Shown: positions 20,604 to 38,061 of the stretch, one piece after another
How the letters are laid out: every line of letters starts with the position of its first letter
Position numbering within the stretch: position 1 is the stretch's first letter
Source: Alphaproteobacteria bacterium CG1_02_46_17
Lineage (GTDB): Bacteria > Pseudomonadota > Alphaproteobacteria > Micavibrionales > Micavibrionaceae
Direction of reading: 5' to 3'
Assembly: GCA_001871905.1 (NCBI GenBank)
Contig: MNUG01000009.1
Span: 1-64,000 of the forward strand
DNA length: 64,000 nucleotides
Notes under the pieces: generated by a model
Seen by the model: only the letters and a program-made list of their open reading frames with translations
Told to the model about the DNA's origin: nothing
Databases searched by the model: none
Made by a program: the position numbers and the translations under genes

Positions 20604-22511
20604 GTGCCTGCAAGTGGAAAATTTATGGAAGTTATTGATTTAACAGGAAAAGACGAGGATCAGAACAAAAGTTCTGGTGGTGCAGGGTTGCCTGCGCGTC
20701 CCGATCAAATCAAAGCCCTTGATGCAAAGGAGCTTGTCAGGGCAGGTGGACATGGGCTATCGCGGCGGAGCGGAGGCGTTGCGGGACGCTATATTGATGA
20801 GGATGGACGGGGGCATTCCAGTGAGGCAGATGGTCGCGGACGTATCGGTGAGCGCATGGTCGCTCAGGGGATTATCACTCAGGAGCAATTGAATGTTGCC
20901 TTGCAGGAAAAGAAAATTACCGGAAAATTGCTGGGACAGGTTCTGGTTGATCTCGGATTTATTGGCGAGCAAATTCTGATCGAGTTTCTGGCCAAATCCA
21001 GTGGCCATGAGGTTTTTGACCCCAAAACGACAATCTTTGATGGTGAGGCGTTGGTTCTGGTTGATAAGGAGCAGGCCAAGAAGTTGCGTGTCCTCCCGAT
21101 TTCCTACCGGAATAATGTCGTTGTCGTTGCGATGGTTGATCCGTACGATATTGTGGCGACCGATGGATTAAAGAGAATTCTGCCCAAGGGCACCGAGGTT
21201 CGTTGCAAAGTTACGACAGCCACGATCCTTTCTGATGCTATTGATGCAGCTTATGGATATTCCAGCTTGATCGAGGATATTCTTAAGGAGTTGGATGACG
21301 GTACGGTTAACCCTGATGATGTCGCCAAGTTGAATGAAGACAAGGCTTATAGCCATCCGGTTGTGCGATTGGTCAACGCGTTGTTGATTGATGCCGTTAA
21401 AACAGGTGTTTCGGATTTGCACTTTGAGCCGGAAGAGAACTTTGTCCGTTTGCGGTACCGTTTAGACGGCGTGTTGTTTACCGCCCAGATTTTGCACAAG
21501 AAGATATGGAACGGGGTGTCCCAGCGGATTAAAATTATGTCGAAGATGAATATTGCCGACAAGCTGTCTCCGCAAGATGGACGTTTCAATCTGAATATCG
21601 GAGACCGTGAAGCGGACTTTCGTGTTTCATCCTTACCAACTGTCCATGGCGAAAATATTGTTCTTCGTGTTTTGGATAAGAACGCCAGTATTAAGCCATT
21701 GGTAAAATTGGGATTTAGTGAAGACAATCTGAAAAGAATCCGAATGGCGCAAGCACGCCCCGAGGGGATTATTATTGTGACCGGCCCGACTGGTTCGGGT
21801 AAGTCAACTTCTCTTTACTCAATGATTAATGAAATCAATAAGGTAGAGGTGAATATTCAGACATTGGAAGATCCTGTTGAATATTCTTTGCCAATGATCA
21901 GGCAAACCCATGTGCGGGAAGGAATTTTGACGTTCGCGGACGGTATTAAGGCTTTGCTGCGTCAGGATCCGGATATTATCTTTATCGGAGAGATCCGTGA
22001 CGGGATGACAGGAGATATGGCGCTTAAGGCGGCGATGACTGGTCACCAAGTTTACACAACCCTCCACACTAATGATTCGTTTGGCGCCATTCCGCGTCTG
22101 GTCGATATGGGATTAAAGCCCGGAATGATTGCGGGAGCGATTATCGGGGTTTTTGCACAGCGTCTGGTTCGTGTATTATGTGAAAACTGTAAGGAAGAAC
22201 ATCACCCCAACGAAGAAGAATGTCAAATTCTGGGTGTCTCTTCGGGTGAGGCTCCTAAAATTTTCAAAGCCCGTCAGGGTGGGTGTCCAGTGTGCTCTGG
22301 CCAAGGATATAAGGGGCGTGTGGCGATCGCAGAGATCTTGTTATTGGATGAAGATCTGGACGAGATTATTGCGCGCGGGGGCACAAAAGTAGAAATGAAG
22401 CGTGTGGCTCAACAAAAGGGATTCAAAAGTATGCGAGATGATGGTATCCTCAAAGTCCTTGATGGGGTCACGAGCATTGAAGAAATCGCTGGCGCCGTTC
22501 ACGTTTATTAG
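20604..22511 (+). CDS. pilB: Type IV pilus assembly ATPase (PilB/MshE/GspE family) with MshEN-like N-domain
   Basis: 635 residues. A disordered N-terminal stretch of about 70 residues precedes an MshEN-like domain (RIGERMVAQGIITQEQL, then LLGQVLVDLGFIGEQ). MshEN domains bind c-di-GMP. The ATPase core has Walker A GPTGSGKST, Asp box VEDP-type (LEDPVEYSLP), Walker B DPDIIFIGEIRD, His box TTLHTND, and a tetracysteine zinc site (CENC...CPVC). It drives pilus extension in the cytoplasm. GTG at 20604 has a good AAGGAG site; the ATG at 20625 is the alternative. Confidence 0.93.
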   Translation: MPASGKFMEVIDLTGKDEDQNKSSGGAGLPARPDQIKALDAKELVRAGGHGLSRRSGGVAGRYIDEDGRGHSSEADGRGRIGERMVAQGIITQEQLNVALQEKKITGKLLGQVLVDLGFIGEQILIEFLAKSSGHEVFDPKTTIFDGEALVLVDKEQAKKLRVLPISYRNNVVVVAMVDPYDIVATDGLKRILPKGTEVRCKVTTATILSDAIDAAYGYSSLIEDILKELDDGTVNPDDVAKLNEDKAYSHPVVRLVNALLIDAVKTGVSDLHFEPEENFVRLRYRLDGVLFTAQILHKKIWNGVSQRIKIMSKMNIADKLSPQDGRFNLNIGDREADFRVSSLPTVHGENIVLRVLDKNASIKPLVKLGFSEDNLKRIRMAQARPEGIIIVTGPTGSGKSTSLYSMINEINKVEVNIQTLEDPVEYSLPMIRQTHVREGILTFADGIKALLRQDPDIIFIGEIRDGMTGDMALKAAMTGHQVYTTLHTNDSFGAIPRLVDMGLKPGMIAGAIIGVFAQRLVRVLCENCKEEHHPNEEECQILGVSSGEAPKIFKARQGGCPVCSGQGYKGRVAIAEILLLDEDLDEIIARGGTKVEMKRVAQQKGFKSMRDDGILKVLDGVTSIEEIAGAVHVY

Positions 22512-22555: not shown

Positions 22556-23782
22556 GTGGAGGTTACCATTCAGCCCTATAAGTACAAAGCTTATAATGCT
22601 AAAGGTCGTCCGATTCGTGGCGTGGTTTCTGCCGCCAACGAAGTAGATTTGTATAACCAGCTTCAAGGTGCGGGGATGGAGCTGGTAAGCTGTGCCCCTG
22701 TTTCTGCCCGTCGAAGTAGCGGGATTGCGCTGCTCCGACCAAAAGTTAAAACACGCGATTTGATCCAGTTCTTTATGCATCTGGAACAAATGCAGGCGGC
22801 TGGTGTGCCAATGCTTGATTCTTTGGCCGATGTTCGGGATTCTGCGGAAAACCAGACATTGAAAGATATTATGACGGATGTTCACCGGAGTGTGTCTGAT
22901 GGAAGTTCGTTGTCAGAATCTTTGGCGGCTTATCCGAAGGTCTTTTCGAATCTTTATATTTCCCTGATTGAGGCTGGTGAAGAGACTGGTAATCTGGAGA
23001 TGTCTTATTCCCAGTTGATTAAATATCTGAAATGGATTGATGAGATGCAATCCAAAATCAAAAAGGCGACGCGCTACCCGACGATTTTGTTGGTTGTGGT
23101 CGTTTTGACGATTACGGTGATGATGGGGGTGGTCGTCCCCCAGATCGTCGGTTTTATCAAGAATTTGGGACAGGAATTGCCGGTTTATACCACAGCATTG
23201 ATGGCGACGTCCGAATTTTTCCAGGAATATTGGTGGGCGGTTCTCGCGGCTCCGGTTATTATGTTTTTCGTGTATAAATCCTTGCGCAAGAGTTCTGAAG
23301 GTTTCGCCTATCAGATGGATACGTTGTGGTTGCGCCTTCCGATTATGGGGCCTTTGATTCGGAAAATCTCGATTGCCCGTTACTCTCAAACCTTCGGCTC
23401 ATTGTTCTCAAGCGGGATTGATGTGATTAATTGCTTGAAATCGTCTCAACAAACCGTAACCAATCTAGCCTTGATCGAAGCTTTGGAAATTGTTCAGGCG
23501 CAGGTTCAGTCAGGCTCCCCCTTATCGGCGGCATTTGGCGCGTCAGGCGAATTCCCGACGCTGGTGACGCGTATGATCAAGATCGGTGAAGAGTCCGGTA
23601 ATCTTACTCCGGTTCTTAATCAGGTATCGGAATTCTACACAAGGGATGTTGATGAGGCGGTTCAAGGATTGATTACGATGATTGAGCCTATGCTAACCGC
23701 ATTACTTGGTGGTATGATCATGTGGATTGCTGTCGCTGTCTTTGGCCCGATTTACTCTAGTTTTGAACATATTGAAATGTAA
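22556..23782 (+). CDS. pilC: Type IV pilus inner-membrane platform protein (PilC/MshG/GspF family)
   Basis: 408 residues with two T2SSF domains. The first carries FFMHLEQMQAAGVPMLDSL and IEAGEETGNLEMSYSQL; the second FGSLFSSGIDVINCL and KIGEESGNLTPVLNQV. Three hydrophobic segments lie near residues 170, 225 and 380. It couples the PilB motor to pilin extraction. The GTG at 22556 gives the family N-terminus (YKYKAYNAKGRPIRG), but the best Shine-Dalgarno, GGAGG, lies inside codons 2-3, just ahead of an ATT; the start is uncertain by a few codons. Confidence 0.93.
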   Translation: MEVTIQPYKYKAYNAKGRPIRGVVSAANEVDLYNQLQGAGMELVSCAPVSARRSSGIALLRPKVKTRDLIQFFMHLEQMQAAGVPMLDSLADVRDSAENQTLKDIMTDVHRSVSDGSSLSESLAAYPKVFSNLYISLIEAGEETGNLEMSYSQLIKYLKWIDEMQSKIKKATRYPTILLVVVVLTITVMMGVVVPQIVGFIKNLGQELPVYTTALMATSEFFQEYWWAVLAAPVIMFFVYKSLRKSSEGFAYQMDTLWLRLPIMGPLIRKISIARYSQTFGSLFSSGIDVINCLKSSQQTVTNLALIEALEIVQAQVQSGSPLSAAFGASGEFPTLVTRMIKIGEESGNLTPVLNQVSEFYTRDVDEAVQGLITMIEPMLTALLGGMIMWIAVAVFGPIYSSFEHIEM

Positions 23783-23794
23783 CGGTTGGTTGTT

Positions 23795-25435
23795 ATGTCT
23801 GCACTTTACCCTTCGATTATATCCCCGACACGATGTGTTCTCCTTATTATGGACGAAGGGGTCGGCGTTTATGTGTCGTCCGGACGAGGTGTTTCGTTTA
23901 TTGATTCCTATCATTGGCGCGAGTCAGGCTTTGAAGAAAAGCTTTCAGACGCTATTTCCCGAAGTGGCGCTGTGTCTGTTGTAATTTTGAATGATGCGGT
24001 CGAACAGCATTACAGGAAAGAGAAAGTTCCTGTCCTTTCCTTCTTTGATAAAGCTAATATCATTCAACGTCGGTTAAATGTGGCGTTCCCGAATTTCTCC
24101 ATGCGGGCGGCGGTGGTTCTGAAAGAGGGAACCAAGTTGATCCGTGAAGCGGCCGCCAATGAAAAAGATGTGGTCAAGGGCGATCTTTATCTGTTCGCAG
24201 CCGTCCCTTCTACAGAAGCTTTTGGACGTATTATGAGTGCGGTTTCAAGCGTGGACGCCCAGATTGTCGGCTATGGTTTATTACCTGTTGAATCGACCCC
24301 TCTGGTTGATGCTTTGGTGAAAAAGCTGGCTAGCAGAAAGACAGGAATTGGTGGAGCGCGTTGGTCTATTCTGATTTCCCAGCATCGTGGCGGAGGATTG
24401 CGTCAGATCGTTGTCCGGAATAACGAGTTGGCGTTGACCCGTGTCACGCCGGTGATCGAGCCTGACCCTGAAAGTCCGGGAGCGTGGGCAGCTGATGTTT
24501 CTCAAGAGCTTCAGGCAACATTGAGTTATTTGTCCCGTTTCGGTTATACGCCGGAAGATGGTCTTGATATTATGGTCGTTGGTGACTCCTTATACACCGA
24601 GCCATTGGAGGGGATGATTTATGCCCCTTGTAACTATACCACCCTGACCTTGAAAGAAGCGTGTGACCTTATAGGTATCCGTGTTCTTGATCGGGGTGAG
24701 GAGCATTTCTCGGACGCGTTGCATGTCGGATGGGTCGGGCGCAAAGCCATGCTTGATTTGCCGCTGGTTTCCCGAGAAATCAATTCGATTAAAAAACCTC
24801 GTCAGGCGGCGATGGCGTTTATGGTTTTATGTTCGATTGGAGTTTCTGGTGTTGCAGCTTATGCTGTAGACGAGGCGATGCGGCTTTATCGGACAACCGT
24901 TAACATTGAAGTCGCTCAGGAACAGAAGAGAAAAATTGATGAGATTTACGCTGAAGAATTGAAGCGTAAAGAAAGTATGGGGATTGATGTTCCTTTGATT
25001 AAAGGGTCGTTGGCGATCAATAAATTGATATCTGATGCGGCGATTGATCCTTTGGTTGTTCTGGATGCCATTAGTAGGGAATTGCAGGATATCCGACTGG
25101 ACGGATTTGAGTTTAATAATACAGGGTCTGAGCCTGCAGAAACATTGAGCCCTGGAACTAATCTTGCGGACCGTAGAACCGAACTGCTGCTGAAAATGAG
25201 CTTTGCCGGATCTGTTGATGCGGTGAAGGGGAATGAGGAGCTTGATAAGCTGGTGGATCGTCTGAATAGTCGTCTGGAAGAGATCGGTTATAAGGCGCAA
25301 GTGAACAAACAGTTGCAAAAATTTACGTATGATTCCGCAGTCGATAGTCAGGCAGGGATAATTGCAAAGGTCCGAGCTGCACAAGACAGATATAATGCCG
25401 AAGTTAAAGTCGTGAGGGTCAAGAAAAATGGTTAA
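23795..25435 (+). CDS. GspL-like pilus assembly protein (PilM-like domain fused to PilN-like domain)
   Basis: About 546 residues. The first 330 have the mixed alpha/beta look of an actin-like (PilM/GspL cytoplasmic) domain (CVLLIMDEGVGVYVS; LDIMVVGDSLYTEPL). A single membrane helix follows at about 335-355 (AAMAFMVLCSIGVSGVAAYAV), then a coiled coil and a periplasmic ferredoxin-like region (VLDAISRELQDIRLDGFEF), as in PilN. PilM and PilN are normally separate; the joined form resembles GspL. ATG at 23795 preferred over TTG at 23786. It overlaps the next gene by 8 nt. Confidence 0.75.
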   Translation: MSALYPSIISPTRCVLLIMDEGVGVYVSSGRGVSFIDSYHWRESGFEEKLSDAISRSGAVSVVILNDAVEQHYRKEKVPVLSFFDKANIIQRRLNVAFPNFSMRAAVVLKEGTKLIREAAANEKDVVKGDLYLFAAVPSTEAFGRIMSAVSSVDAQIVGYGLLPVESTPLVDALVKKLASRKTGIGGARWSILISQHRGGGLRQIVVRNNELALTRVTPVIEPDPESPGAWAADVSQELQATLSYLSRFGYTPEDGLDIMVVGDSLYTEPLEGMIYAPCNYTTLTLKEACDLIGIRVLDRGEEHFSDALHVGWVGRKAMLDLPLVSREINSIKKPRQAAMAFMVLCSIGVSGVAAYAVDEAMRLYRTTVNIEVAQEQKRKIDEIYAEELKRKESMGIDVPLIKGSLAINKLISDAAIDPLVVLDAISRELQDIRLDGFEFNNTGSEPAETLSPGTNLADRRTELLLKMSFAGSVDAVKGNEELDKLVDRLNSRLEEIGYKAQVNKQLQKFTYDSAVDSQAGIIAKVRAAQDRYNAEVKVVRVKKNG

Positions 25436-26072
25436 GGGGTTATCCAACAAGATTGTTTTCTTTATCCTTTTTCTGCTGTTTGTTGGCGGCGCCGGTGGCT
25501 ATCTGGTCTATGAATATTTGATGCCTGCGCGCGAGGGAGCGGAACGCGAATTATCTGCCACCAAAGCGGCTATTGATGCAAAATATCAGGAAGTTGCCAA
25601 GATGAAGGAAGAGTTCATTTTGTTGCAAAGCCAGTTGCGGGATTTCAAAAATCTGGAAGCCAGAGGGTTCTTTGGCGATCAGGATCGCGCACAAGCTACA
25701 GAGAATTTTTCCAAGCTGGTTGATCGTACGGGGCTCTTGCAGGCCAATTTGAAATATGAAGCAGGTAAAGTTGTTGTCAATAAAATGGCGGAGGATGCCA
25801 AGCAGATTGTCATCAAATCCCGTGGCCAGATCAATATTGAGAGTCTGGATGATGTTGATGTCTATACATTGTTGAAATATATGCAAGAACGTTACCCGGG
25901 TAGTGTTGATGTTACCAAGGTTACACTGGAGCGTACCGAAACATTGAATGCGGATATGTTGCGGCAAATCGGAGGAGGAACTCCTGTCCCTCTCGTCAAG
26001 GGCGTCATTGAGTTTGATTGGAGAACGATGACATCTCGTGATGTTACCGCGCCGCAAGGTGGAGGAATATAG
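25428..26072 (+). CDS. PilO/MshJ-like pilus alignment protein
   Basis: 214 residues. Short cytoplasmic start, one membrane helix (VFFILFLLFVGGAGGYLVY), a coiled coil (AERELSATKAAIDAKYQEV), then a compact periplasmic domain. Size, topology and position between the PilN-like and PilP-like genes fit PilO, which bridges the inner-membrane platform and the secretin. Sequence identity to PilO is low by eye, so the call relies on topology and context. Confidence 0.75.
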   Translation: MVKGLSNKIVFFILFLLFVGGAGGYLVYEYLMPAREGAERELSATKAAIDAKYQEVAKMKEEFILLQSQLRDFKNLEARGFFGDQDRAQATENFSKLVDRTGLLQANLKYEAGKVVVNKMAEDAKQIVIKSRGQINIESLDDVDVYTLLKYMQERYPGSVDVTKVTLERTETLNADMLRQIGGGTPVPLVKGVIEFDWRTMTSRDVTAPQGGGI

Positions 26073-26073
26073 A

Positions 26074-26739
26074 ATGTTAGCTTATACCTATCGTATTGAT
26101 CGTCGATTATTGGGTCTGTTTTGTGCTGGTGTTTGCGCTGTGTCAGTTTTTGGCGCAGGAAGCGTAACGGCGCGTGCGGAAACGGGTTCTGCAAATGGCG
26201 GAGTTGCTTCTTCCTCGGCACCGACCTTCGGGACAACAGATTCTGTCGCTGCGCTGTCAGATGACGAGTTGCCTCCAGAGGTGAAAATTCTACAAAGTAT
26301 AGAGAAGGAAATCAGGGAAAAGTATAAAAAACAGATTTATGTGCGTGCTCAAGTCCCATCCCTGTTTTTTACTCCTGCTCAACATGCCCTATTGCGTGAG
26401 GCGCGGGTTGGATTTAATACGCGTGTTCCTACCTTTCAGGATTTGAAAGATTCTGGTGATCCGAATGACCCGAATTACAGACCGCCAACTTCGTTGCGTG
26501 AGGTAACTTTGAGCGGGATATTATACAATTCTCCTGATGACTGGACGGTTTATCTGAACAAGGCGCGTGTTACGCCTGACTCTATTCCATCCGAAGTGGT
26601 TGATATCAAAGTCTTCAAAGACTATATCGAATTACGTTGGTTTGATCAGATTTCCAACCAGATTTATCCGGTCCGCCTAAGGCCAAACCAAAGATTTAAT
26701 TTGGATGCGCGCGTGTTTTTGCCCGCCAAATCCTCATAA
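26074..26739 (+). CDS. PilP/MshK-like periplasmic pilus protein
   Basis: About 221 residues. A signal-type hydrophobic segment (LLGLFCAGVCAVSVFGAGSVTARA) is followed by an Ala/Ser-rich linker. The C-terminal domain reads REVTLSGILYNSPDDWTVYL ... PVRLRPNQRFNLD, the small beta fold of PilP, MshK and GspC homology regions that contacts the secretin. The ATG at 26074 follows GGAGGA; the frame extension to 26038 is rejected because it overlaps the upstream gene. Confidence 0.72.
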   Translation: MLAYTYRIDRRLLGLFCAGVCAVSVFGAGSVTARAETGSANGGVASSSAPTFGTTDSVAALSDDELPPEVKILQSIEKEIREKYKKQIYVRAQVPSLFFTPAQHALLREARVGFNTRVPTFQDLKDSGDPNDPNYRPPTSLREVTLSGILYNSPDDWTVYLNKARVTPDSIPSEVVDIKVFKDYIELRWFDQISNQIYPVRLRPNQRFNLDARVFLPAKSS

Positions 26740-26759: not shown

Positions 26760-27515
26760 GTGTCTGAGCCCGTTTTTCTCGCTGTAAAGGTTTCTGCTTT
26801 GCGCGCTGGCTATGGTCGCAAGGAAGTCCTACATGGCATTGATCTGTCGGTTGATGTCAGTCAGACTTACGGGTTGATTGGCTTGAACGGGGCGGGAAAA
26901 ACAACTCTGGTTAAAACAGTTCTTGGATTGAAAGAGCCGATATCGGGTGATGTCGCCGTCTTTGGAAGAAGCTCCCGGAATGCTGATGTTCGACTTGATG
27001 TGGCTTATTTGCCCGAACGTTTTGATCCTCCATGGTTTTTATCGGGTGGAGAATTTATCGATTTTGCAGTCTCTTTGTATGGGCGGCAGGTCAGTCGTGA
27101 GGATAAAACCCGTTTTTGCGAAGCGCTCTCCCTTGATGCTGCGGTTTTGTCGCAACGCGTCCAGACCTATTCCAAAGGGATGCGTCAGAAACTTGGGTTG
27201 ATTGCAACGGTCTTGACGGGATGTAAAATATTAATCCTCGATGAGCCGATGAGTGGTCTTGATCCGCTGGCGCGATCTTTGGTCAAGAGTATGTTGATTG
27301 ATGTCCGGCAAGAGGGGCGTACCATCTTGCTGAGCAGTCATATTTTATCGGATATGGATGAAATCTGCGATTTTGTGTCGGTTGTCCATCAAGGGGATTG
27401 TTTATTCACTGGTACACCTGCTGCGATGCGCGAGAGTACAGGTGAGGAGTCTTTGGAAAAGGCGTTTCTTAATGTTATCGGCCATGTGCCAAGAGTTCTA
27501 GGCAAGGTGGCGTAA
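26760..27515 (+). CDS. ABC transporter ATP-binding protein (PilH-like candidate)
   Basis: 251 residues, one ABC cassette: Walker A GLNGAGKTT, signature YSKGMRQKLGL, Walker B ILILDEPMSGLDP, switch LSSHIL. The class matches ATPases of ABC-2 exporters (NatA, GldA, PilH). It sits between the PilP-like and TPR genes; its likely permease is at 34481. In Myxococcus xanthus, PilH and PilI form such a transporter needed for pilus formation. GTG start at 26760, 9 nt after GGAG. Confidence 0.85.
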   Translation: MSEPVFLAVKVSALRAGYGRKEVLHGIDLSVDVSQTYGLIGLNGAGKTTLVKTVLGLKEPISGDVAVFGRSSRNADVRLDVAYLPERFDPPWFLSGGEFIDFAVSLYGRQVSREDKTRFCEALSLDAAVLSQRVQTYSKGMRQKLGLIATVLTGCKILILDEPMSGLDPLARSLVKSMLIDVRQEGRTILLSSHILSDMDEICDFVSVVHQGDCLFTGTPAAMRESTGEESLEKAFLNVIGHVPRVLGKVA

Positions 27516-27609
27516 ATGGTGTATCATTCTGTTCGTGGTTTTGGGCCGCGTCATTTATATCCGGCCTCTTTTGGTTCTATATCCATTCTATGTCCACCAG
27601 GTGAGAAGT

Positions 27610-29352
27610 ATGTCAGATCAGAATAATCATAACGATCAGGAAGAGTTCGAAGCGATGTTTTCCTCTGAGGAAGGCCGTCGGGATAAGGCACCTGTCCAGA
27701 AAAAACAGGACGGAGATTTTCCTGAAGAGATTCTGGACGTAGACGTTTTTGATGCTGATACAGTGTCTGGAGAAGATCTGGCTGACTTTTCGGATATTGA
27801 TGACGGGGTTGATGAAAACGGTATTTTTGCTGCATCCTCCGGAAAACGAAAAAATCGAAAAAAATCATCCTCTCCGGCAATGATGGCTTTGGTTGTATTG
27901 TTGGCTGTTGGTGGAGCCGGTGGATATTTCTATTATACCAATCCTGAAATTATCAATCAGATTAAAGAGAATTTTGCTGGAGAAGTGGCGTCGTCTTCTT
28001 TGTTATCCGGCTTGAATGTTTTGGATGGAGACTCAAAAGATGCTTCTGGTTCCCAGTTAGATGGTGGAACTCAAGATGTTGATTCTGTGATTGGTGGTAT
28101 CATTGCCCCAAGTGTTGACGAGATGCCTCCACAACCAGAGCCGGTTGAAATGACCGATGCTGCTGGTACTATTGTTGAGAATGCTTCAGGTGTTTCGGAA
28201 AATATGCCTGTACCGGATAATGTTGTGCCGTCTCCTGATGCGCCGTTGGTGGATTCTGGATCTGTGGCCCAGTCTTTGGATGGCGATATGCCACCGCCCC
28301 CCGCGACGCCGGATGCTCCGGTCGAGGAAGTTACTCAAAATTCAGGGTCTGTTGTTCCTGTTCCTGTTGCTGAAAATGAGCAAGTTGCAGAAAATGAAGT
28401 GATTCAGGACCCCGAGCCTGTCGTGGAGGGGAATGCAAAAATTATCCGTCCCACAGAAGATGTGAAGCACAAGATTACTTTGGTTGATGATTTATCACCG
28501 GAAGACAAGCCGAGTGTTTCTGATTTGCAAAGTGCGCCGGTTGTTAAAGCGGACGCAAAGCCAGTTGAGGATCAAGGTGAAGCTGCAACTGCAGACGCAG
28601 AGAAGAAAGATATGTTCTTTGATGCGCCTTCGGGTAAAATTCTGGCAACATTGCCTGCGCCATCTCTGGATGCAAAGCGTGGAAAATACGAAAGTATTAT
28701 TGTTGTAAACTCCCCGACGAAATCATCGAGCAAATCTTCCAAGAAAGCTGCTGTTGACAACCATCTGGATATTCAAACAACGACGCTAGATGATCGTGTG
28801 GTGGCTGCCAGCCGTGCTTTGAAGCTCGGGCGTTATGATGCCGCAAAAAATATGTATGATGAATTATATACCCTTAACCCTCGTGATCCGCGTGTGTTGA
28901 TGGGAAGGGCTATTCTGCTTCAGAAAATCGGCGAACCGGATCGCGCGATTGCCGCCTATGAAGAGGTTCTGGCTGTTGCCCCTGATAACGCAGAGGCTAT
29001 CGTCAATATGGCAGGACTGATCCGTAAGGTGCAGCCGGCCATGGCGTTGAGCAAATTGTTAGATATGCGTCAGAAACATCCTGATAATGCTGCGATTGCC
29101 GCACAGCTCGGTGTGGCTTATGCCGATTCAGGAAATCTGCAGGATGCGTATCGTTACTTAGATCTTGCAACGAGTATGCAGCCTGGCAACGCCCAGCATT
29201 ATTTCAATATGGCGATTATTGCCGAACGGGCGCGGGATATTCCAAAGGCGATCGGCATGTATGAAAAAGCATTGGAAGTGGATGCTATTCATGGCGGTGG
29301 AGCAACCATCAATCGTGATGTGATTTATGATCGCCTGACCCGATTGAGGTAA
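27610..29352 (+). CDS. Membrane-anchored TPR protein of the pilus locus (MshN/PilF-like position)
   Basis: 580 residues. Acidic cytoplasmic N-terminus of about 90 residues, one membrane helix (AMMALVVLLAVGGAGGYFYY), a roughly 280-residue Pro/Val/Glu/Asp-rich stalk, then about five TPR units from about residue 395 (ALKLGRYDAAKNMYDELYTLNPRDPRVLMGR). TPR proteins such as MshN and PilF/PilW help assemble secretins and pili. The ATG at 27610 follows AGGTGAGAAG. Confidence 0.78.
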   Translation: MSDQNNHNDQEEFEAMFSSEEGRRDKAPVQKKQDGDFPEEILDVDVFDADTVSGEDLADFSDIDDGVDENGIFAASSGKRKNRKKSSSPAMMALVVLLAVGGAGGYFYYTNPEIINQIKENFAGEVASSSLLSGLNVLDGDSKDASGSQLDGGTQDVDSVIGGIIAPSVDEMPPQPEPVEMTDAAGTIVENASGVSENMPVPDNVVPSPDAPLVDSGSVAQSLDGDMPPPPATPDAPVEEVTQNSGSVVPVPVAENEQVAENEVIQDPEPVVEGNAKIIRPTEDVKHKITLVDDLSPEDKPSVSDLQSAPVVKADAKPVEDQGEAATADAEKKDMFFDAPSGKILATLPAPSLDAKRGKYESIIVVNSPTKSSSKSSKKAAVDNHLDIQTTTLDDRVVAASRALKLGRYDAAKNMYDELYTLNPRDPRVLMGRAILLQKIGEPDRAIAAYEEVLAVAPDNAEAIVNMAGLIRKVQPAMALSKLLDMRQKHPDNAAIAAQLGVAYADSGNLQDAYRYLDLATSMQPGNAQHYFNMAIIAERARDIPKAIGMYEKALEVDAIHGGGATINRDVIYDRLTRLR

Positions 29353-29380: not shown

Positions 29381-29890
29381 ATGTCCGGTATTGGCTTATT
29401 TTATTCCGATCCTTTTTATACAGCCATTATAGTGGGCGCGGTATTTTGTGTGGGGTTATGTCTGGGCAGTTTTTCCAGTGCCATTGCTTATCGCGCTGTG
29501 CGCGGGGAAAGTTGGATTGTTACTGGCTTTGGAGAAAATAAATCTGCTGCGCGGTCAAAATGTCCACACTGCCATCATCAATTAGGCTTTTATGATTTAA
29601 TCCCTGTCATATCGTGGGTACTTATGGCGGGGAAGTGCCGATACTGCAAAACTCCGATATCTATCCGTTATCCTGTTCTGGAATTATCGGCAGCTTTACT
29701 TCTGAGCGGATATTATCTCTATACCGGCTATTCCCAGAATATTATTCTAAACGGGCTGTTTGTTGTGTCGATACCTTTTTCTTTAGCGTTGATTGCGGCA
29801 AAGTTTGAAAAGGGGAGGAAACTACCCTTCTCTTTATGGTTTATGGGTTTATTATCTATGTGCGGAATGGTAGTATTATGTATCTTCTAA
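29381..29890 (+). CDS. Prepilin-peptidase-like protein keeping only the cysteine domain (no aspartyl protease domain)
   Basis: 169 residues. It matches the N-terminal part of PilD: GSFSSAIAYR, CPHCHHQLGFYDLIPVISW, GKCRYCKTPISIRYPVLEL, with both CxxC pairs of the methyltransferase-linked domain. Where PilD has its first catalytic Asp (near an IDxxxxxLPD segment), this protein reads AAKFEKGRKLPFSLW, and it ends before the second, GxGD. It therefore cannot be a standard A24 peptidase. It may methylate, be an accessory, or be a remnant. A complete peptidase is expected elsewhere. Confidence 0.78.
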   Translation: MSGIGLFYSDPFYTAIIVGAVFCVGLCLGSFSSAIAYRAVRGESWIVTGFGENKSAARSKCPHCHHQLGFYDLIPVISWVLMAGKCRYCKTPISIRYPVLELSAALLLSGYYLYTGYSQNIILNGLFVVSIPFSLALIAAKFEKGRKLPFSLWFMGLLSMCGMVVLCIF

Positions 29891-29998: not shown

Positions 29999-31165
29999 AT
30001 GGACATTACTCAACTTCTCGCGTTTGTTATGCAGAACAATGCATCCGATTTGCATTTGAGCGCAACAAACCCGCCGATCGTGCGTGTTTACGGGACGTTG
30101 AAGCGTCTGAAGGCCGAGGCTCTCACCAATGATGATATTCGAGGCATGTTGTACTCGATTATGAATGATGACCAGCGGGCCGAATTTGAAAAAAATCTTG
30201 AGATAGATTTCGCGATTGCCTTTGGAGAAAAAGCACGTTTCCGTGTGAATGCCTTTACAAACAGGAATGGAGCTGCGGCTGTGTTCCGTACCATTCCATC
30301 CGTTATTCCGTCGATGGAGGAGCTTGATCTCCCTCCAATTATGCGCCGTTTTGCTGAATTGGAAAAAGGGATCGTCCTTGTGACGGGGCCAACCGGTTCG
30401 GGTAAATCCACAACTTTGGCTTCGATGATTAATCACATTAACGAGACGATGCCCAAACATATTCTGACGGTTGAAGACCCTGTTGAGTTTTTTCACACAT
30501 CAAAGAAAGCCCTGATCAATCACCGAGAGTTGGGAACTGACACACAAAGTTTTTCCCGCGCTTTGAAAAGTGCTCTGCGGGAAGACCCTGATGTTATTCT
30601 GGTGGGGGAGATGCGCGACCATGAAACAATTTCTCTGGCCTTGACGGCAGCGGAAACCGGACACCTTGTTTTCGGGACACTTCACTCGAACTCGGCATCC
30701 AAAACCATTGACCGTATTATTGATGTGTTCCCGACGGGCGATAAGGAAATGATCCGCGCGATGCTGTCGAGTTCGTTGCAGGGTGTTATTGCCCAAACTC
30801 TTTTGAAACGTAAGGGCGGACAGGGGCGTGTGGCAGCGTTCGAAGTTCTGGTTGGAACCAACGCAGTACGAAACCTGATCCGCGAAAACCAGATTCCGCA
30901 GATGTATTCCATGATCCAGACTGGTTCTCGTTACGGTATGATTACCATGGAAGACTCAATCGAGAGCTTGCTTGATCAAGGAATTGTGGATGAAGAAGAA
31001 GTGCGTGCAGCCTTGATGAAGGCTACCGATGAAGAAGGTGGCGACCGTGATAGCGGTATGGCAAGTGCAGCCAAAGGTGGGGCGTCTATGCGCCGTAAAA
31101 CTGCCGGACCGGATGCGATGGCGGATGATGACAGCATTAACACTGATGAGGGATATTCGTTTTGA
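29999..31165 (+). CDS. pilT: Type IV pilus retraction ATPase
   Basis: 388 residues. N-terminal PAS-like domain (NNASDLHLSATNPP), Walker A GPTGSGKSTT, Asp box TVEDPVEF, Walker B DPDVILVGEMRD, His box FGTLHSN, and AIRNLIRE-like (AVRNLIREN) with a QMYSMIQTG segment typical of PilT. It powers pilus retraction and twitching. ATG at 29999 with a GGAGGAA site. It overlaps the next ATPase gene by 4 nt (TTGA). Confidence 0.95.
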   Translation: MDITQLLAFVMQNNASDLHLSATNPPIVRVYGTLKRLKAEALTNDDIRGMLYSIMNDDQRAEFEKNLEIDFAIAFGEKARFRVNAFTNRNGAAAVFRTIPSVIPSMEELDLPPIMRRFAELEKGIVLVTGPTGSGKSTTLASMINHINETMPKHILTVEDPVEFFHTSKKALINHRELGTDTQSFSRALKSALREDPDVILVGEMRDHETISLALTAAETGHLVFGTLHSNSASKTIDRIIDVFPTGDKEMIRAMLSSSLQGVIAQTLLKRKGGQGRVAAFEVLVGTNAVRNLIRENQIPQMYSMIQTGSRYGMITMEDSIESLLDQGIVDEEEVRAALMKATDEEGGDRDSGMASAAKGGASMRRKTAGPDAMADDDSINTDEGYSF

Positions 31166-32289
31166 GCGAACCTTTGATCTATTCCTATCTGGTTCAGATG
31201 AATCGTCAAAATGCTACGGATTTGTACTTGACTGTCGGAGTTCCTCCTACGCTGCGTGTTGATGATCGTTTGATCCATGTTTCATCTCAAAATATTGATT
31301 CAGCCCAGATGGGAGATATTCTGGGTACTATTCTGACCACGCGCCAGCGACGGGAATTCGAATCCAAAATGGAATTGAATACGGCTATCGATATGGGCGG
31401 GCATGGACGCTTTCGCGTGAACATCCTGCAGCAACGGCATCAGCCGGCTTTGGTTATCCGGCGGATTATTTCGCGTATCCCGAGTTTTGATGAATTGAGA
31501 TTGCCACCCTTGATGCAACAGCTTTCAATGTTGAGGCGGGGCTTGATCTTGTTAACCGGTATGACGGGGTCGGGGAAATCAACGACTTTGGCGTCAATGG
31601 TTGATTATCGAAATTCCAATTCGCAAGGGCATATTATTACCATTGAAGATCCGATCGAATATCATCACGAGCATAAGAGTTGTGTTGTAACGCAGCGCGA
31701 AGTCGGGGTTGATACGGAAAATTATGCGGTGGCTTTGAAAAATGCCCTGCGACAACGGCCAGACGTTATTCTGGTTGGAGAGATCAGGGATCGTGAAGTG
31801 ATGGAGCAAGCTTTGACGGCCTCCGAAACCGGACATTTGTGTCTGGCAACAATCCACACGAATAATTCATACCAAGCCATTGAGCGGATTGTGAATCTGT
31901 TTAATGAGGATATGCATCAGCAGATCCGTTTGAATCTGGCGACTAATTTGCGTGCCATTATATCCCAGCGACTTGTTTCAACAAAAACAGGGGGGATGAC
32001 CGTTGCTCTTGAGGTGATGCTTAATCAAGGCTTGGTTAAAGAATTGATTTTAGAAGGAAAAATATCAAAAATTCGCGATGTCATGGAGGCCAACCAGAAT
32101 TTGGGAATGGGAACCTTTGACCAATCATTGCTGGTGTTGTTTCAGGCTGGTGTTATTACCGAAGAGGTTGCTCTGTCCCAGAGTGATCTGCCGGGTGACA
32201 TGAAGATCAAGCTTCAGCAAGTGCGTCTTGGTGGATCGCAGTCGGGGCTATCCCAAATGGACACCTCGCTTTTGACAATTTCTGAATAG
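31162..32289 (+). CDS. pilU: PilT-dependent retraction ATPase (PilU-like)
   Basis: 375 residues, paralogous to PilT. Core motifs: DLYLTVGVPPTLRV, Walker A GMTGSGKSTT, Asp box TIEDPIEYHHEH, Walker B RPDVILVGEIRD, His box ATIHTNN. The IEYHHEHK segment and C-terminal length fit PilU, which assists PilT in retraction. TTG start at 31162 overlaps the pilT stop (TTGA); a GAGG lies about 10 nt upstream. Confidence 0.9.
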   Translation: MSEPLIYSYLVQMNRQNATDLYLTVGVPPTLRVDDRLIHVSSQNIDSAQMGDILGTILTTRQRREFESKMELNTAIDMGGHGRFRVNILQQRHQPALVIRRIISRIPSFDELRLPPLMQQLSMLRRGLILLTGMTGSGKSTTLASMVDYRNSNSQGHIITIEDPIEYHHEHKSCVVTQREVGVDTENYAVALKNALRQRPDVILVGEIRDREVMEQALTASETGHLCLATIHTNNSYQAIERIVNLFNEDMHQQIRLNLATNLRAIISQRLVSTKTGGMTVALEVMLNQGLVKELILEGKISKIRDVMEANQNLGMGTFDQSLLVLFQAGVITEEVALSQSDLPGDMKIKLQQVRLGGSQSGLSQMDTSLLTISE

Positions 32290-32406: not shown

Positions 32407-34467
32407 ATGACACTGAAACCTTCCTCTCTCAAGACTACGGTTACGAGCCTTCTTGCGTTATCGGTCTTTCTTCCTGCGTCGGGCTGTGATCTGGCGAATA
32501 ACCACACAAAAATGGATCGCTCGACCAATAACGAGTTTCAGGATTTCCGTGATGCCCTTGCTCCGCGCGAAGAGGGGTTTGGTGACCAATCTTCCATGGC
32601 ATCGGATATCCCCGATTTGCAGCCATATGTTTCCGACAGTGTGGAAAAGCTTCCGCCAATGCCTCTGGTGTCGATTTCGATCAACCAGAGTGTCCCGTTA
32701 CGTGAGGCCTTGTTCGAATTGGCCAAGCAGGCTGATTATGATATCGAACTTGATCCGCGTATCAGTGGGTCGGTTATCTTTACGGCGCGTAATCGCCCGA
32801 TGGATGTTGTGATTGACCGGATTTGTGAAATCTCAGGGCTGCGCTATAAATTTGACGAGAATACCTTGCGGATCGAATTGGATACGCCGTACTCCAAGAA
32901 TTATAAAATTGATTATCTGAGCTTTACCCGTAAAAACAGTGGTTCCATGAAAACGGATGTTTCTGTTGCCAGTGGCGGCGGGGAAGGTGGTGTTGGTGGT
33001 GGATCAACCTTCTCTGTTGATACATCTGCGGATTCGGATTTCTGGGCTGAGCTGGATACCAACCTGAAACAAATTCTTGCTTCCAACGCGTCTGGAAGTT
33101 ATCTGAAGACATCGGATGACCCGCAGATTACCTTGACGACAGCGGGCCCAACCAATCCTCCTGTTCCTCCGGTGGACGCGGCGTTGTTGCAGGATGGTTC
33201 TGCTGCAGCGACTGTTTCTCCTCAGGCAGGTGGTGATTATTATGTGACGTCTCCGGTTTCTCTTCCTGCCACTACGCAAGAGCCCCAATCTGAGCCGGTT
33301 GTCGGAGATAGTGTGAATGTTGACACTTCTGCGACTGCCAATGAAGCGGTCAATCAGCCAACGGCTGCTCCTGCCCAACCTTCGTCTGTTCCTTTGGAAG
33401 GTGGTGCCGCAGGGCAGACTGCCGTTGCGCCTGTGCCAACCTTGAAAATCGAGTCCTTGCCATCTTCTCTGGCAACCGGGGCAAGTTCCGCGCAGAATGA
33501 AATTTCCTTTACCCCGTCCTTTTCCTTGAATAAGCAAGCGGGAATCGTTTCTGTTTATGCGAATGAGCGTTTGCACAAGAAAGTTAGGGAATATCTTGAT
33601 GAGTTGAGGCGTTCGAGTACCTCACAAGTCCTGATCGAAGCCAAGGTTCTGGAAGTCTCTTTGTCTGACGAGTTCGCGACGGGGATCAAGTGGGATCTGC
33701 TTGACCGTGTTGGTGACTTTAATTTGACAGGAACTTTTACAAAACCATCCTTTAGTTCAGCTTCAACCAATGTTCTCACCCTAGGGTTCACGGGGGATGA
33801 TATTAGTTCTTTTGTTGATGCCTTGTCCCGTTTTGGAACGGTTCATGCCTTGGCAAGCCCACGGCTGACCGTTTTGAATAATCAGGCGGCTGTTTTGAAC
33901 GTGGCGAGAAATCAGGTTTATTTCAAGCTGGATGTTGAGTCTGATACAACATCCGATGGAACAAATGCAACGACCAGTGTGACAGTTGATTCTGAAATTA
34001 AAACAGTGCCGGAAGGTGTTTTGATTAACGTGATGCCATCCATTAATCTGGATAAAAATATGGTATCGATGCAAGTTCGTCCAACCGTGACCAAGATTGA
34101 AGAATATGTTTCTGATCCCGGGGTTGCGTATGTTGCCGCGCAGAATAATGTTGATATTGAATCCCTTATTCCGATTGTGAATGTTCAGGAAGTCGATTCC
34201 GTTTTGAATATGCGCTCGGGTGAAATGATGGTGATGGGAGGCTTGTTGCAAGACAGCTCGTCATCCCAACAAGAGGGGGTTCCTGTTGCCAGCGAGATTC
34301 CTATTTTTGGTGGATTGTTCCGTAATCAGGGAGATACAGTCAAAAAATCCGAGCTGGTTATTTTCCTGAAAGCGACCATTCTGAATGAAGCGAATGAAAG
34401 TATTCATCAGACTGATCGTGATTTGTATAAGAACTTCAGTCAGGATAGACGTCCTGCGAAAATGTAG
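32407..34467 (+). CDS. Type IV pilus outer-membrane secretin lipoprotein (PilQ/MshL family)
   Basis: 686 residues. A lipoprotein signal (lipobox LPASGC, near residue 27) precedes a secretin/TonB short N-terminal domain (SVPLREALFELAKQADYDIELDP), a Gly/Pro/Ala-rich region of about 200 residues, and the C-terminal secretin domain (VLIEAKVLEVSLSDEFATGIKW, then VPVASEIPIFGGLFRN). It forms the outer-membrane pore for the pilus. The lipobox and compact layout resemble MshL more than long PilQ proteins. Confidence 0.92.
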   Translation: MTLKPSSLKTTVTSLLALSVFLPASGCDLANNHTKMDRSTNNEFQDFRDALAPREEGFGDQSSMASDIPDLQPYVSDSVEKLPPMPLVSISINQSVPLREALFELAKQADYDIELDPRISGSVIFTARNRPMDVVIDRICEISGLRYKFDENTLRIELDTPYSKNYKIDYLSFTRKNSGSMKTDVSVASGGGEGGVGGGSTFSVDTSADSDFWAELDTNLKQILASNASGSYLKTSDDPQITLTTAGPTNPPVPPVDAALLQDGSAAATVSPQAGGDYYVTSPVSLPATTQEPQSEPVVGDSVNVDTSATANEAVNQPTAAPAQPSSVPLEGGAAGQTAVAPVPTLKIESLPSSLATGASSAQNEISFTPSFSLNKQAGIVSVYANERLHKKVREYLDELRRSSTSQVLIEAKVLEVSLSDEFATGIKWDLLDRVGDFNLTGTFTKPSFSSASTNVLTLGFTGDDISSFVDALSRFGTVHALASPRLTVLNNQAAVLNVARNQVYFKLDVESDTTSDGTNATTSVTVDSEIKTVPEGVLINVMPSINLDKNMVSMQVRPTVTKIEEYVSDPGVAYVAAQNNVDIESLIPIVNVQEVDSVLNMRSGEMMVMGGLLQDSSSSQQEGVPVASEIPIFGGLFRNQGDTVKKSELVIFLKATILNEANESIHQTDRDLYKNFSQDRRPAKM

Positions 34468-37211: not shown

Positions 37212-37281
37212 TATATACTGTCCGGGGCCTCTCTCTCGTGAAGGCATCTTTAACATCACATCTACCTGAATGGAGTTTTCA

Positions 37282-38061
37282 ATGACACAATCAACCCTGC
37301 AAACTCGTCGGTCGGAGCGCGGTTTTACGCTCGTCGAATTGGCGATTGTTATGATTATTATCGGTCTTTTGATCGGTGGTATCCTTAAAGGACAAGAACT
37401 TATTAATAATGCTCGTGTAACTGCTGCTGTTTCCCAATTGAAAGGAATTGAAGCCGCTATTAACACTTTCCGTGATAAATATGCAGCAATTCCTGGCGAT
37501 ATCACAAACCCAACGGCTCGCCTTCCAGACTGTACTGGAACAATTTGTGTTAAAGTTGGCAACGGCGACTCTTTGCTCCAAGTTACCGCAGTTGCTGGTG
37601 ACGTTGGTGGTGGTGCAACAGACGATGAGGGTGGACGCGCTTTCATCCACTTGGCAGCGGCTGGAATCCTTTCCGGTAGTAACGTGGACTCAACTATTGG
37701 TACATGGGCTGCTGGTGCGGCTTTGCCAAACTTTAATATCGCCGGTCAGATTGCTATTGGCTACAATGACACTTCGCCGACTGGACTGGTTGATGGAGCC
37801 TCTGTTCTAACGGGTCACTATTTGGCTGTTGGTACGGTTGGTGGTGCTGCGATGGGTGGTGAAACAATCGCTGCGTCTCAAGCTGGTAACATTGATCGTA
37901 AACTTGATGATGGTCTGCCAAATGCTGGTTCGGTTCGTGCTTCTGGTACTGAAGGTGCTGGTGATGCGACTGATTGTGCCGCTGGTCCAGCTACAAGCGA
38001 TATCTACGCTGAAAATTATGATGGTAAATCCTGTGGTTTGTTCGTTCGCGTCATGAACTAA
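37282..38061 (+). CDS. Major type IV prepilin
   Basis: About 259 residues. Leader MTQSTLQTRRSERG, cleavage site RG/FTLVE with Glu5, then the pilin helix (LAIVMIIIGLLIGGILKGQEL). Cys residues occur near residues 90-97 (DCTGTIC) and at the C-terminus (DC ... SC), consistent with disulfide-bounded loops. Length is greater than typical pilins of 150-170 residues. ATG at 37282 follows TGGAG; the start at 37270 is rejected. It is flanked by terminators on both sides, so it is a single-gene unit, usual for a highly expressed pilin. Confidence 0.92.
   Translation: MTQSTLQTRRSERGFTLVELAIVMIIIGLLIGGILKGQELINNARVTAAVSQLKGIEAAINTFRDKYAAIPGDITNPTARLPDCTGTICVKVGNGDSLLQVTAVAGDVGGGATDDEGGRAFIHLAAAGILSGSNVDSTIGTWAAGAALPNFNIAGQIAIGYNDTSPTGLVDGASVLTGHYLAVGTVGGAAMGGETIAASQAGNIDRKLDDGLPNAGSVRASGTEGAGDATDCAAGPATSDIYAENYDGKSCGLFVRVMN

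Follow-up and report, generated by a model that had tools for sequence, protein, structure and literature searches.

A stand-alone zinc domain of PilD in an alphaproteobacterial pilus locus: a candidate pilin N-methyltransferase

The pilus locus of Alphaproteobacteria bacterium CG1_02_46_17 contains a short pilD gene, whose product keeps the zinc domain of the prepilin peptidase and has no peptidase domain. From the comparison of sequences, we infer that this product is rather likely to be a stand-alone zinc-dependent pilin N-methyltransferase, which would rely on the peptidase of another pilus system. On a wider scale, the chances seem even that prepilin maturation has been divided several times between a minimal (about 96–190 aa) zinc-dependent N-methyltransferase and a leader peptidase from another filament system. 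With equally divided confidence, we suggest that the methyltransferase remains at the pilus locus, or persists where the locus is lost: The methyl mark would be the part of PilD which cannot be replaced, while cleavage can.

The window, by which we mean the whole stretch of 64,000 nucleotides that we have analyzed, corresponds to contig C37 of G000, a genome of 2.07 Mb estimated to be 99.87% complete. It contains a type IVa-like pilus cluster, whose genes appear in the order PilB, PilC, PilM/N-, PilO- and PilP-like, ABC ATPase, TPR protein, zinc-domain gene, PilT, PilU and PilQ-like secretin, with a prepilin further on. The features are as follows:

20604..22511, + strand: extension ATPase, which we take to be PilB-like (PF00437 and PF05157)
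22556..26739, + strand: genes presumably coding for PilC, PilM/N-like, PilO-like and PilP-like proteins (open reading frames, order conserved in relatives)
26760..27515, + strand: ABC-transporter ATPase of the pilus cluster, flanked by the PilP-like and TPR genes (PF00005)
27535..29352, + strand: TPR protein, immediately upstream of the zinc-domain gene (Pfam TPR)
29381..29890, + strand: zinc-domain-only PilD, 169 aa, with an ATG start in the list of open reading frames; one long helix, the zinc loop and three long helices, without peptidase domain
29561..29647, + strand: four cysteines (C61, C64, C86 and C89), with DLIPVISW between them and Gly-Lys preceding the third one
29801..29803, + strand: K141, at the position of the first catalytic Asp in the alignment with intact PilDs
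29999..31165, + strand: PilT (TIGR01420 match, 1.6e-143)
31162..32289, + strand: PilU-like second retraction ATPase, which we take to be PilU (TIGR01420 match, 1.1e-125)
32407..34467, + strand: secretin, presumably PilQ-like; the name comes from no profile, and homologues are found at the equivalent place in relatives
37270..38061, + strand: prepilin with an N-methylation motif, RGFTLVE (PF07963, 30.8 bits)

The prepilin is the kind of substrate that would be expected. The ABC-transporter ATPase gene has the same position in the pilus loci of four relatives (G022, G074, G064 and G014).

The 169 aa protein is a PilD orthologue, both by its place in the locus and by its sequence. Comparison of loci shows that relatives have their full-length PilDs at this same place, with the TPR gene on one side and pilT on the other. 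An earlier reading of the window, made from the sequence alone, had described the protein as a stand-alone cysteine domain of PilD, which keeps both CxxC pairs and the DLIPVISW segment. This description agrees with our results: The first pair is CPHC (C61, C64) and the second CRYC (C86, C89), and Pfam profile PF06750 (A24_N_bact) gives a match of 5.6e-26 (90.9 bits, with a cut-off of 23). No match to PF01478 (Peptidase_A24) is found in the protein with an E limit of 10, the HMMER filters removing most matches beyond about 0.1. Both catalytic Asp regions are missing, as was also claimed. The segment of the first catalytic Asp of intact PilDs is occupied by AAKFEKGRKLPFSLW, and in the 60-copy alignment K141 is found in the column where 34 of 34 aligned intact PilDs have D. 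GxGD, the second Asp region, is absent from the 169 aa protein, both in its sequence and in the alignment.

The AlphaFold2 model of this protein is confident (mean pLDDT 92.2), with four long helices and a Cys4 loop. Helices are predicted at 11–40, 75–81, 96–115, 121–142 and 150–168. According to the alignment and the model, both CxxC pairs sit between helices 11–40 and 96–115, and two extra helices of the window protein correspond to the beginning of the peptidase half. Searches of the PDB gave no credible experimental structure for the methylase domain, neither by sequence nor by fold, where nothing was found at E <= 0.001. NCBIfam gave no informative match for the five proteins examined.

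That a normal PilD is concealed here by an error of sequencing or assembly has a practically negligible probability, and we have rejected this idea. It would fit the full-length PilD orthologues which lie between the TPR gene and pilT in other genera of the family. Nevertheless, only 108 nt separate the stop of the zinc-domain reading frame from the start of pilT (29999), a stretch too short for the missing 100 aa or so, and for an intact A24 domain in frame downstream, which the sequence-only reading had considered as evidence against itself. Truncated copies are found in nine other genomes (G004, seven more of the same genus, and G010), there is no other PF06750 match in the host genome, and both PF01478 matches are on other contigs. 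Full-length orthologues had also been considered as contrary evidence; they do exist in other genera at the same position, but the genus mates share the short form. The position of these orthologues indicates, therefore, that the short form is derived and not a mistake.

We have compared a sample of 95 genomes of the order, including that of the window. A24_N is found in 84 of them and Peptidase_A24 in 93. The classification of genomes is based on the A24_N copies and most of the A24 copies, which were extracted (all A24 matches were listed for 40 genomes); a PilD copy was classed as intact and full-length by its GxGD motif. The 95 genomes contain 55 intact full-length copies, mostly 250–300 aa long, and 26 non-catalytic ones: 23 truncated copies and three full-length copies without Asp (G008, G012 and G050). 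PilT is present in the genome for 16 of the truncated copies, while the other seven are found in genomes without a PilT-level match. In some relatives, the stand-alone domain is only 96–113 aa long. Two genomes with genes cut by contig ends, G063 and G083, were left out of the counts of intact and defective copies.

A full-length PilD of G010 (L004) was left out of all PilD counts: We have set it aside as a probable contaminant, by the gene content of its contig. This contig (L218, G010:C12) carries the full PilD together with a different set of genes which we take to be pilMNOPQ, and also, presumably, aroB and accBC. Its GC content and tetranucleotides show no foreign composition. Should L004 be genuine, G010 would have both a truncated copy and a complete PilD. 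In the A24 tree, this foreign-looking PilD clusters with an A24 protein of G027 (L035, a 238 aa frame), which has no zinc domain and is found near two GFTL-type pilins.

We have studied the conservation of the zinc domain by aligning 60 copies, namely the 26 non-catalytic ones and 34 of the 55 intact ones. In 17 columns of the zinc domain, all 34 aligned intact PilDs have the same residue. The 26 non-catalytic copies retain these residues in 440 of 442 cells, with only two changes, from G to A and from R to K. The first catalytic Asp, in turn, is kept in none of these 26 copies: It is replaced by another residue in 19 and by a gap in seven. The four Cys are invariant in all 60 aligned copies. 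A study of Pseudomonas PilD reports that zinc is required for methylation and not for cleavage, and links the four Cys, a Gly and the basic residue next to the third Cys to methylation (PMC3584216). The window protein keeps the residues linked to methylation; among the 23 truncated copies, 22 have the Gly that precedes the third Cys by two places, and 20 the basic residue just before this Cys.

The same authors suspect that the zinc site serves for structure or for recognition (PMC3584216). This suspicion would favor a zinc-domain accessory without methyltransferase activity, which would only bind pilins or the TPR protein, helping pilus assembly by docking or as a chaperone. We consider such a role quite unlikely, since the residues conserved in those 440 cells are invariant in bifunctional PilDs and include most of the methylation-linked ones.

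The idea that the gene is a decaying remnant, en route to loss, is very improbable. The three full-length copies without Asp do resemble intermediates of the decay of the C-terminal half; that of G008, inside the genus of the window, looks like an intermediate. On the other hand, the 17 columns are almost unchanged across separately truncated lineages. The truncated copy of G004 is 92% identical over the whole protein to that of the window, and dN is well below dS between them: 0.04 and 0.25 in the zinc domain, 0.03 and 0.25 in the tail. This is the sole informative pair; in other pairs of the genus dS is near or above one, or not computable. In this one pair, G000 and G004, the zinc-domain-only gene evolves under purifying selection.

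In a PilT tree of 73 genomes, the distribution of the defective PilD state corresponds to six changes (5–6 in bootstraps), and at least three are forced by the best-supported branches. The six changes are placed in the genus of the window together with g31, in g3 together with g17, and in G044, G032, G071 and G063. For this purpose G063 was counted as defective. The tree excludes G039, whose match is PilB, and G009, where PilT and pilD are on different contigs; the unclassed G021 and G069 are left out of the count of changes. We read these changes as losses because PilD is taken as ancestral, which is suggested by the full-length orthologues found at the same place. The domain had been supposed to be split off PilD. 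It does stand alone, but within this order the data fit a repeated loss of the catalytic half of PilD in several lineages better than a split, and the likely replacement is a PilD-like paralogue with only the A24 domain.

The proposal that the peptidase must be encoded elsewhere is in agreement with the gene content of the host genome. In a profile search of this genome, the single occurrence of PF06750 (A24_N) is the 169 aa protein, while PF01478 (Peptidase_A24) occurs twice, on contigs C3 and C16, in both cases as an intact enzyme without A24_N or zinc domain. A second, complete PilD, whose search had been suggested, was not found in the host genome with either profile. The A24 protein of C16, which we take to be CpaA-like, adjoins a presumably cpaB-like gene. 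The other one is an orphan:

G000 contig C3, L243:17322-17867: PilD-like A24-only enzyme, 181 aa (PF01478, 69.3 bits)

This orphan carries both Asp regions, VIDFRTWILPD and GLGDVK, and no Cys4 domain. A tree of 188 A24 domains shows three groups: CpaA-like, PilD and orphan, the last one with 63 members. The 181 aa enzyme of the host is placed apart from the CpaA-like group and beside the PilD group, a position which may hint at cleavage of the T4a prepilins of the window. Both Asp are present in every one of the 63 orphans, as shown by pattern for 58 and by eye for five, and the Cys4 motif is found in none.

In the mechanism that we propose, the pilD gene of the pilus locus would have lost its aspartyl-peptidase half. 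The remaining membrane-anchored Cys4 zinc domain would still methylate mature type IV pilins at their new N-terminus, in a reaction dependent on SAM and zinc. Cleavage of the leader peptide would be carried out in trans by a separate A24 peptidase, most likely the 181 aa orphan, less likely the CpaA-like enzyme. We have also considered the orphan as the other half of PilD, an idea which we have rejected: It forms its own group in the A24 tree, is often found at the second pilus locus described below, and is also present in relatives with an intact PilD, and in G048 without a zinc domain.

Another arrangement would be an obligate two-subunit enzyme, in which the zinc-domain protein is inactive alone and binds the A24-only peptidase, forming a PilD-like heterodimer that both cuts and methylates. 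The extra helices of the window protein match the start of the peptidase half and, as expected for a docking surface, they are conserved between G000 and G004. Such an enzyme, which is with the accessory role the rival to be taken seriously, is unlikely, however: The copies found in G039 and in six f7 genomes stop right after the second long helix, and G048 keeps the orphan without any zinc domain.

Coming back to a methyltransferase with a borrowed peptidase, the neighbourhood of the orphan is of interest. In seven of 13 neighbourhoods (G000, G048, G039, G044, G011, G013 and G068) it adjoins a response regulator and a second pilus locus, with a secretin, an ATPase and a platform-like protein, to which we have given the label 'type IVb-like'. 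In the other six (G067, G073, G071, G032, G012 and G072) it has no such neighbours. In L243:9262-17281 and in L245, the type-IVb-like locus is placed head-to-head with the A24-only peptidase and the response regulator. The second-locus ATPase is found in 64 of the 95 genomes; 56 of these 64 contain the orphan, compared with seven of the 31 genomes without this ATPase.

The orphan is also present in 18 of 19 genomes with a defective PilD and PilT. The exception is G010, which is 89% complete and also lacks the ATPase of the second pilus. Among the genomes of the PilT tree which are at least 90% complete, the orphan is found in 15 of 15 with a defective PilD and in 29 of 45 with an intact one (Fisher 0.006, kinship ignored); a kinship-aware test of orphan against PilD defect, with 2–5 pairs, is not significant. 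The presence of the orphan follows the second pilus locus, so it is not itself a response to the loss of PilD. This explanation of its presence is thus weakened, by the second locus and by the kinship-aware test. Three genomes, G024, G077 and G080, which keep the orphan without the second-locus ATPase though PilD is intact, also count against a link with PilD loss. As the orphan follows the second locus, the second peptidase probably predated the loss, and made the peptidase half of PilD dispensable. A telling case is G012, where PilD is dead, the second-locus ATPase is unmatched and the orphan is still kept.

The combinations found in four genomes speak against the proposed mechanism. G048 contains the orphan, without a zinc domain and without N-methyl prepilins. 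No orphan was found in G076, G079 and G085, which have zinc-domain-only genes; G076 and G079 have only the CpaA-like enzyme, and G085 (72% complete) has no A24 match at all. Another A24-only peptidase, found in G063 and G069 (L194 and L159), has a GFTLLE-type pilin and a platform-like protein as neighbours, and may belong to a third kind of pilus locus.

The presence of the zinc domain tracks that of prepilins with the N-methylation motif. PF07963 prepilins are found in 92 of the 95 genomes, and the three genomes without them (G048, 100% complete; G082, 85%; G046, 79%) are all without A24_N. A24_N is absent in 11 of the 95 genomes, and the chance of finding all three among them is 0.0012, ignoring kinship. 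Eight genomes with N-methyl prepilins and no zinc-domain match count against this tracking: G021, where the gene is cut at a contig end, and G025, G056, G065, G066, G078, G089 and G093, which are 73–90% complete. The seven zinc-domain-only genomes without PilT contain 2–4 PF07963 prepilins each: two in G039, G067 and G073, three in G076 and G085, and four in G079 and G087. Regarding the secretin, G039 has a strong PilQ match, four of these genomes have weak matches and two have none. Three genomes of family f7, G067, G079 and G073 (L219, L220 and L222), have the TPR gene and a 105 aa zinc-domain gene side by side; the rest of the T4a pilus locus was not found around this pair. That both genes outlive the remaining locus in these three genomes would agree with the accessory role discussed above, against which the association with N-methylation-motif prepilins must be set.

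On a wider scale, we have analyzed 387 alphaproteobacterial genomes across the class, with a completeness of at least 90%. A24_N is found above the cut-off in 84 of them. Besides G000 and G044, zinc-domain-only genes of 111–189 aa, not cut by contig ends, are present in 11 genomes outside the order: G192, G178, G162, G280, G141, G323, G464, G244, G259, G404 and G338. All 11 have at least one Peptidase_A24 match elsewhere, which in G464 is only a weak one (29.7 bits); G178, with 10% contamination, has a complete PilD too. This count leaves out G353, G377 and G403, because of contig ends. Copies were read in 34 of the 84 genomes, including all those with frames shorter than 215 aa, so that dead full-length copies in the other genomes would escape.

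Some genomes of this sample have two copies. In G188, G350 and G475, a full PilD is accompanied by a second copy which has neither GxGD nor a match to PF01478. The pair is of another kind in G416, G280 and G192 (L377, L378 and L379): One copy has a zinc domain and no GxGD, while the other has both Asp regions and CxCG in place of the second CxxC. Their sequences suggest a division of labour between the two copies, in favor of the proposed mechanism, but the altered CxCG pair might still bind zinc. In G331 (L349), the PilD frame breaks shortly after GxGD and continues in another frame, possibly due to a recent frameshift or a sequencing error.

With the usual bifunctional enzyme, according to our reasoning, deletion of the gene also removes cleavage. 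Deletion of the stand-alone gene should abolish methylation and leave cleavage untouched. A natural stand-alone domain, with the 96–113 aa found in some relatives, is a small construct for assays and structure determination. These lineages reveal which half of PilD is retained by selection when a second peptidase is around, and the repeated, separate loss of the cutting half in related bacteria offers a natural route to study the purpose of pilin methylation.

Several known systems may be compared with the one described here. R64 PilU and CpaA are prepilin peptidases with peptidase activity only. In a published account, TadV and archaeal FlaK are also peptidase-only (PMC10191384). The openly accessible literature, which leaves out most subscription papers and all preprints, and the accessible part of PMC6668835 gave no description of a stand-alone methylase domain. 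With PilD/GspO (PF06750 and PF01478), the present protein shares the zinc domain, the Cys4, GSF and DLxPxxSW motifs and the position in the pilus locus; it differs in having neither the peptidase domain nor the two Asp, and in its size, 169 aa instead of mostly 250–300. TadV and FlaK (PMC10191384) show the same separability of the two activities, and the likely partner here is of their kind. They are the mirror image of our protein: a peptidase without methylase domain in their case, a methylase domain without peptidase in ours. MSH loci without a peptidase of their own have also been described (PMC6668835); a pilus system depending on the peptidase of another is the shared idea, whereas here the locus retains half of its own enzyme. 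In the TadB/TadC fission of the platform protein (PMC6668835), a two-domain pilus protein gives rise to single-domain proteins, as in our case, but here the second half seems to have been lost, its function covered by an existing paralogue.
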